This document shows, piece by piece, positions 142-34,374 of a DNA stretch of 34,376 nucleotides. Made by a program: the position numbers and the translations under genes. The first letter of the stretch is position 1; each line of letters starts with the position of its first letter. The notes below the pieces were generated by a model. The model worked only from the letters and a program-made list of their open reading frames with translations. It did no database searches and had not been told where the DNA came from. This DNA comes from a bacterium (lineage in GTDB: Bacteria > Patescibacteriota > Minisyncoccia > Phycocordibacterales > PALSA-1337), in the NCBI GenBank assembly GCA_025355565.1, contig JANXZK010000007.1, positions 1-34,376 of the forward strand. The letters are read 5' to 3'.

Positions 142-149
142 AAGGGTGA
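3..149 (+). CDS. 3' fragment of a gene running in from outside the contig (hypothetical protein, short C-terminus)
   Basis: Open frame from the contig edge: HENRQGYHPKIILGEDGILEKNFAEHIKQEHINSDYNRCHFSFGLTEG*. The first 46 residues are identical to those of the reverse-strand fragment at 34126..34374. Confidence 0.55.
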   Translation, partial: HENRQGYHPKIILGEDGILEKNFAEHIKQEHINSDYNRCHFSFGLTEG

Positions 150-150
150 A

Positions 151-215
151 GGGGACTAGCGAGCGCGACTGGCGCGAGCTCGAGGAATTTTCCAGCAGGA
201 AAATATCCGTGCCCC
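151..215. repeat. Small palindromic element with AGCA-loop hairpin
   Basis: Perfect stem attttcc-agca-ggaaaat (187..204); outer ggggac (151-156) with gt(g)cccc (209-215). Confidence 0.5.
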
Positions 216-250
216 TAAATCCTTCTTTGTTGTTTACCGTTTACTGATCA

Positions 251-1359: not shown

Positions 1360-1373
1360 CTGTACATCGATAA

Positions 1374-1424
1374 CACTTCGCAAAGAGTGCTCGGTCGTTC
1401 GAGGATCAGGTGGAATGGATTACC
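1374..1424. repeat. Dispersed intergenic repeat, copy A (similar to 18811..18860)
   Basis: cacttcgcaaagagtgctcggtcgttcgaggatcaggtggaatggattacc versus cgcttcgcaaagagtgctctgtcgttcaaggacaggtgggaggagttacc. Confidence 0.7.
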
Positions 1425-1929: not shown

Positions 1930-2026
1930 TGGTAAACAGTAATCAGTAACCAGTAAACAGATGAATCCAAGTTGCAATTCTCTGTTTACTATTTACCGTC
2001 TACTGTCTACTGATTACTGTCTACTA
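1930..2026. repeat. Inverted pair of degenerate TGTTTACTGATTACTG-type repeats
   Basis: ggtaaacagtaatcagtaaccagtaaacag (about 1930-1959) opposed by ctgtttactatttaccgtctactgtctactgattactgtctact (about 1981-2026). Confidence 0.7.
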
Positions 2027-17017: not shown

Positions 17018-17320
17018 TCACATCGCCGGAGGATCATACATACTGCCAAATAGCGATATGATGCTAGACTTTATGACACCGAGATCGACAGAGACGAACA
17101 AGAGAAAAACCACGGAGAAGAATAGTGCCGAACCTAGAAGGTACAGCGTCGCTAGTTTTTTCGGCAATGTGCCTATGCCAAATCTGATCAGATGATAGAA
17201 AACAGTGAACGAAAATACCCAATAGGCTATAAAAACGAGAACCAGCAATACATAGAAGAGATTTTGCGGATTGAATATAGTTTCAAATGCCATAGAGATA
17301 AGTATACAACGATTTCGCAC
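17018..17320 (-). CDS. Small hypothetical membrane protein
   Basis: Hydrophobic segments; the actual start may be the internal Met at MAFETIF. Confidence 0.6.
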   Translation of the reverse strand: MRNRCILISMAFETIFNPQNLFYVLLVLVFIAYWVFSFTVFYHLIRFGIGTLPKKLATLYLLGSALFFSVVFLLFVSVDLGVIKSSIISLFGSMYDPPAM

Positions 17321-17344: not shown

Positions 17345-18610
17345 TCAATAATTCTTCAACCTATTTATATTGTCATGCTGGCGGATCTTCTCATGGGCTT
17401 TGGCTTCGATCTGACGGATGCGCTCGCGAGTGACACCAAATTCGCGACCGACTTCCTCGAGAGTATGAGTGATGCCGTCGATCAGTCCATGGCGCATCTC
17501 TAGGATCCTGCGTTCCTTCTCAGAGAGGTCATTCAAGATCATGTTGACTTGATCACGAAGGATACGGCGTGAAGATTCTTGATCAGGAGAAAGGATCTTG
17601 TCATCAGCGATGAAATCTTGCAATGTGGATTTGTCGTCACCATCGTCCCCGACCGGCTTTTCGAGCGAGACGACTTCCTGCTCGATCTTTTCGATCTGAT
17701 AGATCTTCTCGACGGCCATACCCATCTCCATAGCGATCTCATCGGGCAATGGTTCACGGCCAAGGTCATGCGATAGGCGACGAACGACTTGCTTATACTT
17801 AGCGATCGTTTCTACCATATGCACAGGGACGCGGATAGTACGTGACTGATCAGCTAAGGCGCGAGTGATCGCTTGACGTATCCACCATGTGGCATATGTG
17901 GAAAACTTGTAGCCCTTCGTCCAGTCAAACTTGTCGACGGCTCGAAACAAACCTAGATTTCCCTCTTGAATGAGATCGAGCAATGTGAGATCTGGTGACC
18001 GGCCGACATATTTTTTTGCTATAGAAACGACGAGACGTAAGTTGGCTTTTGCCAGGAGTCCCACAGCCTCCTTGTCACCGTTTTGGATACGCTTGGCCAA
18101 CTCCTTTTCCATACTGGCGTTGATGAGCGGGTATTGACCGATCTCTTTTAGATACATCTGGATAGAGTCGTACGCGGAGTCTGGACTGCGAGAAAGGTGT
18201 GAAGCTGGTTTCTTGTGACTCAAATCTTCAACTTCGAGCAAGCCTCCACCTTCCAGGACATCGACGTTGGCAGTTGTGAACCTCGTATAGAGTTCATCCA
18301 AAAACAACACATCGTTCTCGATCTGTGGGAATTCCTTCAAAATCTCATTATAAGTAACGAATCCGCGATCTTTCCCTTTTTGTATCAGTTTGTTTGCTTT
18401 TGATTCAAAGTCACGAGCCTTGTCTGCTTTGGATTTCGGACCCGCGCTCTTGGATGTGCTCTTTGTGCCAGAGGAACCAGAAGATCCGGAAGATCCGGAA
18501 GACGAGCGTGCAGCCTTTCTGGCTGGTGTTTTTATTCTAAAAGACTCCCTTTTAGTCGGACGTTGCGAACTGCGACGGGCTCTTGAAGCCGCTTTTTTAT
18601 TTTTACGCAT
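17345..18610 (-). CDS. rpoD: Primary RNA polymerase sigma factor
   Basis: [69 protein letters not shown]; low-complexity (SSG)n N-terminus. Confidence 0.97.
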
Positions 18611-18638: not shown

Positions 18639-18667
18639 ATTGTATAGTAATGGGAGCAACTTGGCAA
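18639..18667 (-). promoter_or_regulatory. rpoD promoter
   Basis: On the - strand TTGCCA (18662-18667) - 17 nt - TACAAT (18639-18644). Confidence 0.55.
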
Positions 18668-18733
18668 GTGCGAGGAAGTAACAGTGCATCATAGATAACT
18701 CCTCCCACCTGTCCCCTCACTTCCTCGCAATTT
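18664..18733. repeat. Short palindromic element with CGAGGAAGT termini
   Basis: gcaagtgcgaggaagt (18664-18679) opposed by acttcctcgcaatttgc (18719-18735); core gcgaggaagt/acttcctcgc perfect. Confidence 0.7.
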
Positions 18734-18858
18734 GCTAGCAATCTCTCGGCATTTTCACAAAAGACTCGCTCCAAGGATTCACTCATCCTTTGGAAAATGC
18801 CACGAGATATCGCTTCGCAAAGAGTGCTCTGTCGTTCAAGGACAGGTGGGAGGAGTTA
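18696..18858. repeat. 163 bp nested palindromic element between dnaG and rpoD
   Basis: Perfect 19 bp arms taactcctcccacctgtcc (18696-18714)/ggacaggtgggaggagtta (18840-18858); middle stem atctc..ggcattttc/gaaaatgcc..gagat; inner stem ccaaggat-tcactc-atccttTgg. Confidence 0.85.
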
Positions 18859-18910: not shown

Positions 18911-20848
18911 TCACATGATCTTCCTTCCTACTTCTGCCTTTCTCACAGATAAAACCTGGCATTTCTTGGCCAATTCGGCGACACGAGCATGATCTCCCGC
19001 TTTTTCAGCCACACGTAGTTCCTGCATAGCCCCTATCAACTCCTCATTGACGATATCAAGACCAAAATTCGAGATGAGTTCCCTCATATGATTGTCCCAT
19101 TTCTCCTCGTCACTGCCGTACAGAGTTTCCGCCTCGAATGACATGTCTTCTATGTCCTTCGCCACTCGTCCACTACGAGTCTTGAATGTATCGCCAGCCG
19201 TCTTTTCCACTTCACTCAAATATTCACCGTACTTCTTCTCATCTTGTTTCTTGATGAGATCCAGAAGACCGAACATGCGGCGCTCTACCAAGTCATAATG
19301 CCTCTGCTTGTTCGCACTGGCGTCCAAAGGAGAATTATTCTGCAAATTTGTCGGACTCGTCGAGCTTGCCGGAGTCTTTGTGGCCGCCGCTTGCGCCTCT
19401 GTTTCCATCTTCTTCCGCACTGCGCGCAAGTCATCCCATATCGCTCCAGCATCTATATTTGCCTTGTCAGCGATCATTTTTACGAAAAAATCTTGATCTG
19501 TGCGACTCTCGATCGAGGCGAGTAACGGAAAGACTCTTTCTCGCAATTCACGTGGGATCTTACGAGGATCTTTTTCGTCCCTGAGAACATTCATCAACTC
19601 AAATTCAACGACAGGTTTAGTGGTACGCAATATTTCTTTCCAGATCTCAGGATTTTCTCTGACGAGATCGGCCGGATCCTTACCGCCTACGAGATCGGCC
19701 ATCTTCACATCCATGCCGAGTGAAAGAGCTATACCGGCCGCTCTAAATGCCGCTTTACGTCCGGGAGCGTCAGAATCAAAGGCGATCACGACATTCGGTG
19801 ATAAACGCCGAACCAAGCCGAAATTGTTGATGATGCCTGCCTTATTTATCGATTCATCAGAAACGGCCGTACCGGATGCTGCGACAATGTTGCGAACCCC
19901 AGACTGATACGACATGATGAGATCCATCTGCCCTTCGACCATGATCGTATAATTCATCGAGCGGATCACGGTCTTTGCTTTATCGAGTCCAAATAATATC
20001 GAGGATTTGTCATAAAGCGATGTGTCCGGACTATTCAGATATTTTGCTGACTTCTCATCAGCCTTCAATATACGTCCAGTAAATGCCACGATACGCCCGC
20101 CAGAATCAGAGATAGGAAACATGATCCGTCCTCGGAAGCGATCGTAATAGGAGAATTGTTCGGGACTACGAGGAAGTTGCCCCGAAACGAACGGTGTCGA
20201 CTTCTGCTGAAGTCGCACCTCGTTCTCACTCGGTCCAGAGACACGATTCTGCTGAATCGCCTTCGCTCGCTCCGAAGGTCGTTTCTGATCAACTTCCTCG
20301 TAGTTCCTTTCTTTCTTCTTGATCAGTCCCGCCTTTTCCATCACTATCTGAGTCCAACCTTTTTTCTTCAGATGATCGAGCAGATGGTTCCAACCCTCTG
20401 GTGCCCAGCCGATATGGAAAGCTTCACGAGTCTCCGTCTTGATACCGCGATTCTTCACGTATTCTTGCGCCTCTCTAGACTTCATGAACTGATCTTCAAA
20501 GAATTTCGAGGCGTCAACCATGATCCTCCACAACTGATCTCTCTCACTTTCATCTTTGTGATCCATGACGAGAGGAACGCCAGCTCTCTCAGCTAACACC
20601 TTGAGCGCACCCTTGAAATCTAGACCTTCGAACTGTTCAACGAAATTGAATATATCCCCTTTCGCGCCGCATCCAAAACAGTAATACCCACCCCTCTCTG
20701 GAGAGATGAAAAATGACGCCGATTTTTCGTTGTGAAAAGGGCATTTGGCTTTGAATGACTTGCCCGCGCGATCGATCTTCACATATGAGCCGATAAGGTC
20801 TTCTATGGGTATGCGCGCTTTGATCTCTTCGACGGTAGTTCGTGACAT
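18911..20848 (-). CDS. dnaG: DNA primase with in-frame palindromic-element insertion
   Basis: CPFHNEKSASFFISPERGGYYCFGCGAKGD zinc finger; YDRFRGRIMFPI; MVEGQMDLIMSYQSG; VVIAFDSDAPGRKAA toprim. Confidence 0.97.
   Translation of the reverse strand: MSRTTVEEIKARIPIEDLIGSYVKIDRAGKSFKAKCPFHNEKSASFFISPERGGYYCFGCGAKGDIFNFVEQFEGLDFKGALKVLAERAGVPLVMDHKDESERDQLWRIMVDASKFFEDQFMKSREAQEYVKNRGIKTETREAFHIGWAPEGWNHLLDHLKKKGWTQIVMEKAGLIKKKERNYEEVDQKRPSERAKAIQQNRVSGPSENEVRLQQKSTPFVSGQLPRSPEQFSYYDRFRGRIMFPISDSGGRIVAFTGRILKADEKSAKYLNSPDTSLYDKSSILFGLDKAKTVIRSMNYTIMVEGQMDLIMSYQSGVRNIVAASGTAVSDESINKAGIINNFGLVRRLSPNVVIAFDSDAPGRKAAFRAAGIALSLGMDVKMADLVGGKDPADLVRENPEIWKEILRTTKPVVEFELMNVLRDEKDPRKIPRELRERVFPLLASIESRTDQDFFVKMIADKANIDAGAIWDDLRAVRKKMETEAQAAATKTPASSTSPTNLQNNSPLDASANKQRHYDLVERRMFGLLDLIKKQDEKKYGEYLSEVEKTAGDTFKTRSGRVAKDIEDMSFEAETLYGSDEEKWDNHMRELISNFGLDIVNEELIGAMQELRVAEKAGDHARVAELAKKCQVLSVRKAEVGRKIM
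20162..20307. repeat. 146 bp palindromic element inside the dnaG coding sequence
   Basis: 15 bp perfect outer arms actacgaggaagttg (20165-20179)/caacttcctcgtagt (20290-20304), enclosing cgacttc-tgct-gaagtcg (20198-20215), cgattc-tgct-gaatcg (20244-20259), ccttcg-ctcgctc-cgaagg (20260-20278). Confidence 0.9.
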
Positions 20849-32594: not shown

Positions 32595-34100
32595 CTATAT
32601 AGCTGGTGTCGACGAAGCCAAGGACACATAACAATACTTCAACGCATAGTCGACCATGATCGCGCCAAGCGCTTGTTTTGTGACTGAGTTTTTCGGACAG
32701 CTCTGCTTCTTACCGGATACGATATTACCGTGGCTATAACTATATGCTCCCTCGAACGAAGCAACGACATGTTCCTTAGACACTGGAGCATAGCAGAAAC
32801 TGAGAAGATAATCTCCGGGGAATTTCCTCTCTTCACCACCACCAAAGATACTATTCATCATTCTCACAGGAGGTAATGACTGTACGATAGACATGCCTGG
32901 GATAGATTCCATACTAGGAAGACCTGGGATCGTAAGCGCGGCGGCACCATTGGTCGGGCTCGAACCATAGACCCGCTTGGCTGTATATCCAGTCGGACAG
33001 GCTCTCTTGTTATCTGCTAGGGGATTTGTGAATGATTTGTATGGTGTACCGAACATACCACCGAACTGAGCTACTGGCTCGACCGAGTCTGACTTACCTA
33101 GACACATATACAAAGCATAATCTAAATATTGTGTGCCAAGTATCGGATACGCCGTATATCCGGTCGGGCATGCCTTCTTGTTTCCTGCGAGAGGATTTGT
33201 ATATGTGTCGGCATTGATCAAACCCCCGGACCCATTGCCTGTGCCGTACATACCGCCGAAATAGTACTGCCCCGTGCTTGTCGAGGAGCCTGCACCGCCT
33301 CCATTCGTAGTTGATGCGGAATCTAACAATGACTGTGTATATGATCCAGGTACATAATCTGGATAAGCACTGTTGTTGAGATTTGGAGCTAGATTACCGT
33401 TTTGAGTAGAAGTAGCATGACTGGACGTCGCAGTCAGAGCTGTACCAGCGGTACCATTAGGCGTACTACTACCAGAAGATGAATGACTGGAACTGCCAGT
33501 AATATTCGGATTCCCTTGCGTATTATATGAATTGGAATTGTTCTGTGCAAATAAACTATTTGAGAAAGTTCCTGGCACATATGTGGAAGAAGAACTCCTA
33601 GGACTACAGATCATATTGGCCGGACAAACGGGCGTTGTAGAACTTGTGACTGGTGCCCTGAGGGTGCAGATCATCCCAGAAGGACATTGCACCGATGGAT
33701 TCGGGCCACCTGCTTGCGATGTTGTATATATTCCAGCGCAGCCATACAAACTGTTTATTTTCATCCTGGACGAAGGACCGAAAAACCCTGTACCGCTCAC
33801 GAGACCATTTGGCACCAAGATATCTGCTGGATATTTTTCTTGAAACGCTTTTACCGCATTAAAAACAGCCGTATCATATGTGGTTATCACTGTACCAGAA
33901 GTCCACAGTCCTTCACGAGAAAGATCGCTCGCCAACGCGGCGGCTTCATATGTTGACAAGTCCATACCTAGACGGAGGTCCCTGGTAAATGTGAAGCAGG
34001 ATGTCTGCGCACTGGAGACTGAAGGAGCAAATGATGTGATAAATATAACGGCAGTAATAGTTGTCACCACAATACTTACAAAAGTTAAGTCTTTATTCAT
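32595..34100 (-). CDS. Secreted peptidoglycan-binding-like protein with C-terminal cysteine repeat motifs
   Basis: MNKDLTFVSIVVTTITAVIFITSFAPSVSSAQ signal; PGBD-like 'STYEAAALASDLSREGLW...YDTAVFNAVKAFQEKYPADIL'; three C-P-x...Y/DYAL.xC repeats. Confidence 0.75.
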   Translation of the reverse strand: MNKDLTFVSIVVTTITAVIFITSFAPSVSSAQTSCFTFTRDLRLGMDLSTYEAAALASDLSREGLWTSGTVITTYDTAVFNAVKAFQEKYPADILVPNGLVSGTGFFGPSSRMKINSLYGCAGIYTTSQAGGPNPSVQCPSGMICTLRAPVTSSTTPVCPANMICSPRSSSSTYVPGTFSNSLFAQNNSNSYNTQGNPNITGSSSHSSSGSSTPNGTAGTALTATSSHATSTQNGNLAPNLNNSAYPDYVPGSYTQSLLDSASTTNGGGAGSSTSTGQYYFGGMYGTGNGSGGLINADTYTNPLAGNKKACPTGYTAYPILGTQYLDYALYMCLGKSDSVEPVAQFGGMFGTPYKSFTNPLADNKRACPTGYTAKRVYGSSPTNGAAALTIPGLPSMESIPGMSIVQSLPPVRMMNSIFGGGEERKFPGDYLLSFCYAPVSKEHVVASFEGAYSYSHGNIVSGKKQSCPKNSVTKQALGAIMVDYALKYCYVSLASSTPAI

Positions 34101-34125
34101 AAATATAAAATTATCGTCGCTAAAT

Positions 34126-34374
34126 TTATAATACAAAATATCTGCTTATATAGCTACGTATAATTGTACCATATAGAAAAGCTGCGGCAATGGCTGCGGC
34201 AAATGTGCTACCGCAAATGAAAGCTATAATGTAGCCTGTCAGACCAAAGCTGAAATGACATCTGTTGTAGTCTGAATTAATGTGTTCCTGTTTTATGTGC
34301 TCGGCGAAATTTTTTTCAAGAATTCCATCTTCTCCAAGGATGATCTTTGGGTGGTATCCTTGGCGGTTTTCGTG
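34126..34374 (-). CDS. 3' fragment of the same gene as at the left end, with hydrophobic C-terminus
   Basis: HENRQGYHPKIILGEDGILEKNFAEHIKQEHINSDYNRCHFSFGLTGYIIAFICGSTFAAAIAAAFLYGTIIRSYISRYFVL*. Confidence 0.6.
   Translation of the reverse strand, partial: HENRQGYHPKIILGEDGILEKNFAEHIKQEHINSDYNRCHFSFGLTGYIIAFICGSTFAAAIAAAFLYGTIIRSYISRYFVL

Follow-up and report, generated by a model that had tools for sequence, protein, structure and literature searches.

The palindrome analysed here is best introduced through the described systems that it most resembles. RPEs are palindromes of ~100-150 bp that occur as several families, patchily distributed, in a reduced genome (PMC6649704, PMC10969869), and they are reported to lose arm identity over time (PMC6649704). 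MITEs of the Correia and ERIC kind are short, non-coding and mostly intergenic, with terminal inverted repeats; inversion is known for Correia (PMC10969869). REPs and REPINs, of the GTAG and CGTC types, are dispersed palindromes whose stems show compensatory changes, and REP copies inside replication and repair genes have been described (PMC3733652). Finally, concerted evolution of long, perfect arms is seen in Nematomorpha palindromes and in inverted repeats ascribed to template switching (PMC6649704, PMC8604942): concerted arms have been discussed for the coding palindromes of Nematomorpha (PMC6649704), and the products of template switching are homogenised arms and inverted spacers (PMC8604942).

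The DNA under study (the window) is a stretch of 34,376 nucleotides from a Ca. Taylorbacteria-like genome of 832 kb on 27 contigs. In Patescibacteria, whose genomes are tiny and are believed to be under pressure to lose surplus DNA, it is unexpected to find so prolific a palindromic family along with a sister family in essential replication proteins; a search of the open-access literature (subscription papers were outside its scope) turned up no account of elements like these in the group. The palindrome between dnaG and rpoD is most likely a genome parasite-like, mobile-looking repeat rather than a switch controlling rpoD. The features of the window referred to below are as follows.

149 to 216, plus strand: copy of the 'cap A' palindrome family, located by cap search
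1369 to 1424, minus strand: partial copy of the element's family, left side only, located by the own-genome repeat search
17345 to 18610, minus strand: rpoD (sigma-70 regions 1.1, 1.2, 2, 3 and 4), the downstream gene
18639 to 18667, minus strand: predicted rpoD promoter, TTGCCA - 17 nt - TACAAT, common to relatives without the element
18696 to 18858, minus strand: palindromic element, a dispersed-repeat copy with ends TAAC...GTTA, supported by repeat search and copy alignment
18696 to 18714, minus strand: right outer arm, in coding orientation GGACAGGTGGGAGGAGTTA
18741 to 18756, minus strand: one arm of the middle stem (partner 18793-18808), with compensatory changes in the helix
18767 to 18784, minus strand: apical cap GAGTGAATCCTTGGAGCG, better conserved than any other part of the family
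18840 to 18858, minus strand: left outer arm, in coding orientation TAACTCCTCCCACCTGTCC, variable among copies and complementary within each copy
18911 to 20848, minus strand: dnaG, the upstream gene
20165 to 20304, minus strand: second palindrome, in frame in dnaG in the linker before YYDRFRGR, a member of the sister coding family

Because the minus strand encodes both genes, dnaG comes first in the direction of transcription, followed by the element and then rpoD. The element sits after the dnaG stop codon and before the predicted rpoD promoter, 28 bp from the latter, and not in the rpoD leader. Its nested palindrome of 163 bp is far beyond chance. The outer arms (18696-18714 and 18840-18858) are complementary over all 19 nt (100%), the middle arms (18741-18756 and 18793-18808) pair at 14 of 16 positions, an inner stem with one bulge is present, and extra short helices occupy the space between the stems. 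Compared with dinucleotide shuffles, the element folds on the plus strand at -82.3 kcal/mol (z -5.4), and the whole dnaG-rpoD intergenic sequence on the coding strand at -112.2 kcal/mol (z -6.6). The coordinates and three-stem anatomy proposed in a first-pass annotation of this DNA are thus confirmed by arm pairing and folding, as is its claim that one arm lies in the loop of a shorter palindrome: the latter (18666-18679 and 18719-18732, 93%) surrounds the arm at 18696-18714, but alone is much weaker, at about -32 kcal/mol vs -89 for the element.

The same annotation had left two readings side by side, a MITE-like or palindromic mobile element and a conformational switch upstream of rpoD, and had staked the former on the existence of other copies and of compensatory changes in relatives. 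Both were found, the compensatory change being massive: the mobile reading is supported in kind and the switch is not. With the dnaG-rpoD intergenic sequence as query, 21 other places in the element's own genome match at E <= 2e-9, and near full-length copies number five (88-97% identity). Related copies are present in four of the 60 relatives searched (G009, G011, G017 and G029). The apical pattern GANYGAANCCNTGGAGSG gives matches in 6 of 101 genomes, with 6-10 per genome in five hosts and one stray match elsewhere, while a reversed-pattern control gave zero matches; searches of viral contigs, phages and plasmids with the element returned no match. All copies seen in this family are between genes, and in-frame insertion in protein genes was not seen. 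The family is short, non-coding, bounded by terminal inverted repeats and present in many copies, as in the definition of MITE-type elements. Some copies fall at contig ends, as repeats break assembly; G029 has two copies split over contig ends, and its four half-copies can be paired via their complementary arms. In practical terms, copies of this kind break metagenome assemblies, and their complementary arms offer a means of pairing contig ends.

Comparison with relatives bears on how the copies arose. In G011, the nearest relative inspected, the dnaG-rpoD gap is 60 bp and contains no palindrome, although the rpoD promoter is kept; in several more relatives the gap is 63-72 bp. A second copy in the element's own genome, starting 4 bp after tgt, is absent downstream of tgt in G009, G011, G029, G015, G021, G018 and G001. 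Both absences make the copies look like insertions. The insertion at dnaG-rpoD is nevertheless not a clean one-step difference, since the intergenic sequence in the window is ~77 bp longer than the element plus the G011 gap, and genome divergence is too large for a single insertion event to be followed.

The copies span approximately GTAAC to GTTAC (these ends occur in most of them) and begin on the outside with a stem that is variable; asymmetric internal loops follow, then an inner stem, and at the centre is the cap AAAGGATGAGTGAATCCTTGGAGCGAATCCTTT. RNAalifold applied to 26 aligned copies gave 54 pairs, 39 of them with at least one double compensatory change; variants of the stem next to the cap include AAAGGAT/ATCCTTT, AAATAGT/ACTATTT and AAAGGCT/AGCCTTT. 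Among the 26 copies, 92.1% of cells pair according to the named structure, compared to 77.8% in shuffles and 41-48% when slid, and double-change cells number 213, vs 64 +/- 7 for the shuffled and 34-64 for the slid control: the shuffle test is inflated by sequence relatedness, but the slid control keeps that relatedness and still falls far short. The outer stems differ among copies and are almost perfectly self-complementary within each copy, with 710 of 735 outer-arm pairs being Watson-Crick, nine G-T and four A-C. Stems selected only at the level of RNA are expected to tolerate many more G-U pairs; near-perfect variable outer stems with so few G-T pairs point to arm-to-arm copying in DNA. 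Beyond the ends, the palindrome continues into unique flanking sequence for a mean of 2.9 bp, vs 0.3 bp for mismatched flanks (n=13). Target-site duplications, which the first-pass annotation had suggested as a signature, did not emerge cleanly: direct duplications of at least 3 bp were seen in 3 of 13 copies, and all are palindromic words explained by the inverted extension.

Two more palindrome families in the same genome carry near-identical caps within unrelated perfect stems. The 'cap A' family matches 34 of 61 genomes of the order, in 15 of 27 genera, with unrelated arms: across 37 copies, an arm scores a mean of 19.8 against its own partner and 5.8 against other copies (G019, where 'cap A' copies have common arms, is the exception). 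In G015 and G021 a palindrome is present at 4/4 orthologous sites, the arms and sometimes the caps differing strongly, and at one of these sites the cap has the opposite orientation with respect to its flanks; two G015 elements are absent from several other relatives. The second palindrome of the window belongs to a coding family and lies in a dnaG linker of 58 aa here vs 7-17 aa in many relatives; compared with G011 and L039, its cap is flipped. A related coding element, ~81% identical over ~125 bp, sits within tgt in G009 and within dnaG in G011, in frame in both. The coding element was found in 13 of 61 genomes; 13 distinct copies were checked, and every one of them keeps the reading frame of the long open frame that contains it. 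The host genes identified are tgt, dnaG, dnaE, topA, recG and uvrB, alongside two further hosts. Two other observations concern coding sequence: a 109-bp palindrome with 14-bp arms (33101-33209) lies inside an open frame of the window (32595-34136) that has no Pfam match, and dnaG of the relative L040, at 1026 aa, contains, downstream of the zinc-finger motif YYCFG, a large insertion of intein-like appearance.

Taken as a whole, we consider it probable that the palindrome arose by insertion of a dispersed palindromic element that is non-coding, MITE- or RPE-like in behaviour and patchy in a clade of Ca. Taylorbacteria, and whose arms would be renewed by template switching. The site of insertion would have been downstream of the dnaG stop codon and short of the rpoD core promoter, leaving the latter intact; the element may have spread as hairpin-forming DNA moved in trans by a putative activity. 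After insertion, template switching during replication would copy one arm onto the other, a process that could keep arms perfect while they diverge and allow the cap to flip. Template switching is proposed because arm homogenisation and cap inversion match its published signature (PMC8604942), with the cap flips being observed in the sister families and not in the element's own family. Any effect on rpoD, such as blocked read-through from dnaG or processing of a hairpin RNA, would be a putative by-product. The combination of concerted arm change and cap flips offers a natural setting in which to study bacterial template switching.

The likeness to known systems is in each case partial. As with RPEs, the clade has a sister family whose copies interrupt unrelated conserved proteins in frame; however, the element's own family, seen only between genes, is likened to RPEs by description, and its arms stay near perfect while their sequence changes. 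In contrast to Correia and ERIC MITEs, its terminal repeats vary among copies rather than being the conserved part, and neither a parental insertion sequence (in a search of the Y1 family) nor a clear target duplication was found. Nematomorpha palindromes and template-switching products are single-locus inverted repeats, whereas here there is a dispersed family with a conserved cap. The element thus works like RPEs or MITEs and cannot be filed as either, given that its target duplications are equivocal and that no parental transposon is known.

A rival explanation is a large transcription terminator or insulator, kept for function at gene ends. Many copies of these palindromes in the element's own genome follow a gene end, G015 and G021 keep theirs at all four of four orthologous sites despite the difference in sequence, and other species have unrelated palindromes between dnaG and rpoD. 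Several copies, though, are situated between divergent genes, copy number is patchy, and the rarity of G-T pairs is unlike that of stems under RNA-level selection alone. The T-tract that the first-pass annotation noted as absent is indeed missing, a scan for intrinsic terminators (GC stem then T run) giving 0 sites. We regard this explanation as improbable.

At first we favoured a different origin for the arms, namely that target DNA next to the insertion point is duplicated in inverted form when the element inserts, the outer arms then being target-derived. Near-identical caps enclosed by wholly different perfect arms suggested as much, as did the extension of palindromes into unique flank and a tRNA-Arg whose 3' part is repeated, inverted, downstream. 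The idea was weakened by two sites aligned with element-free relatives, where the arm has no native counterpart, and by the coding element, whose arms travel with it into different genes; it now seems quite improbable. Insertion into the loops of pre-existing hairpins was likewise rejected, the relatives' sites without the A1 element showing no hairpin. Integron attC sites have conserved ends and a variable inside; considered on account of the TAAC/GTTA ends, they were dropped because the element shows the reverse pattern.

Very improbable, in our judgement, is a REP/REPIN-type element that depends on a RAYT (Y1) transposase for its movement. Its appeal lies in the palindromic form, the intergenic spread and the fact that 35 of 61 genomes have a Y1 transposase domain. 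REPs, however, are 20-40 bp long with a foot tag, whereas the element is ~160 bp with a conserved cap and GTAAC/GTTAC ends; neither a GTAG or CGTC foot tag nor a RAYT gene flanked by repeats was found. The Y1 family search tied no transposase to the family: Y1 is broken in the element's own genome and absent from the family carriers G009 and G017, and the Y1 loci inspected have no flanking palindromes of such a kind.

A conserved cis-regulatory RNA or rpoD conformational switch is scarcely credible and already largely refuted: the element is just upstream of the rpoD promoter and the two hairpins overlap geometrically, but it is outside the rpoD leader, neither the nearest relative nor most of the others have the palindrome, the 21 other places adjoin unrelated genes, Rfam gives no meaningful match at gathering or relaxed thresholds, the competing hairpin is the weaker by far, and its outside partner was not seen in the relatives' dnaG-rpoD intergenic sequences examined.

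Rather unlikely, yet worth stating, is that Patescibacteria of this order harbour a mobile palindrome superfamily with a conserved cap and freely changing, perfectly matched arms, intergenic as well as in frame in replication and repair genes, which would spread as hairpin DNA and have its arms renewed by template switching without a dedicated transposase.

Further palindromes were noted in passing. One in the window (1936-2020), downstream of a gene, has CAGTAATCAGTA units, and a similar motif occurs at L178 15774-15859 and L173 5840-5889. At L182 17126-17270 a palindrome arm corresponds to the 3' part of tRNA-Arg (17074-17146), with the inverted repeat ~130 bp downstream. Palindromes with GTCATTCCCGCG and CGGGAATCC, at L043 3744-3935 and in L202 upstream of its gene, resemble CGTC-type REPs (PMC3733652).
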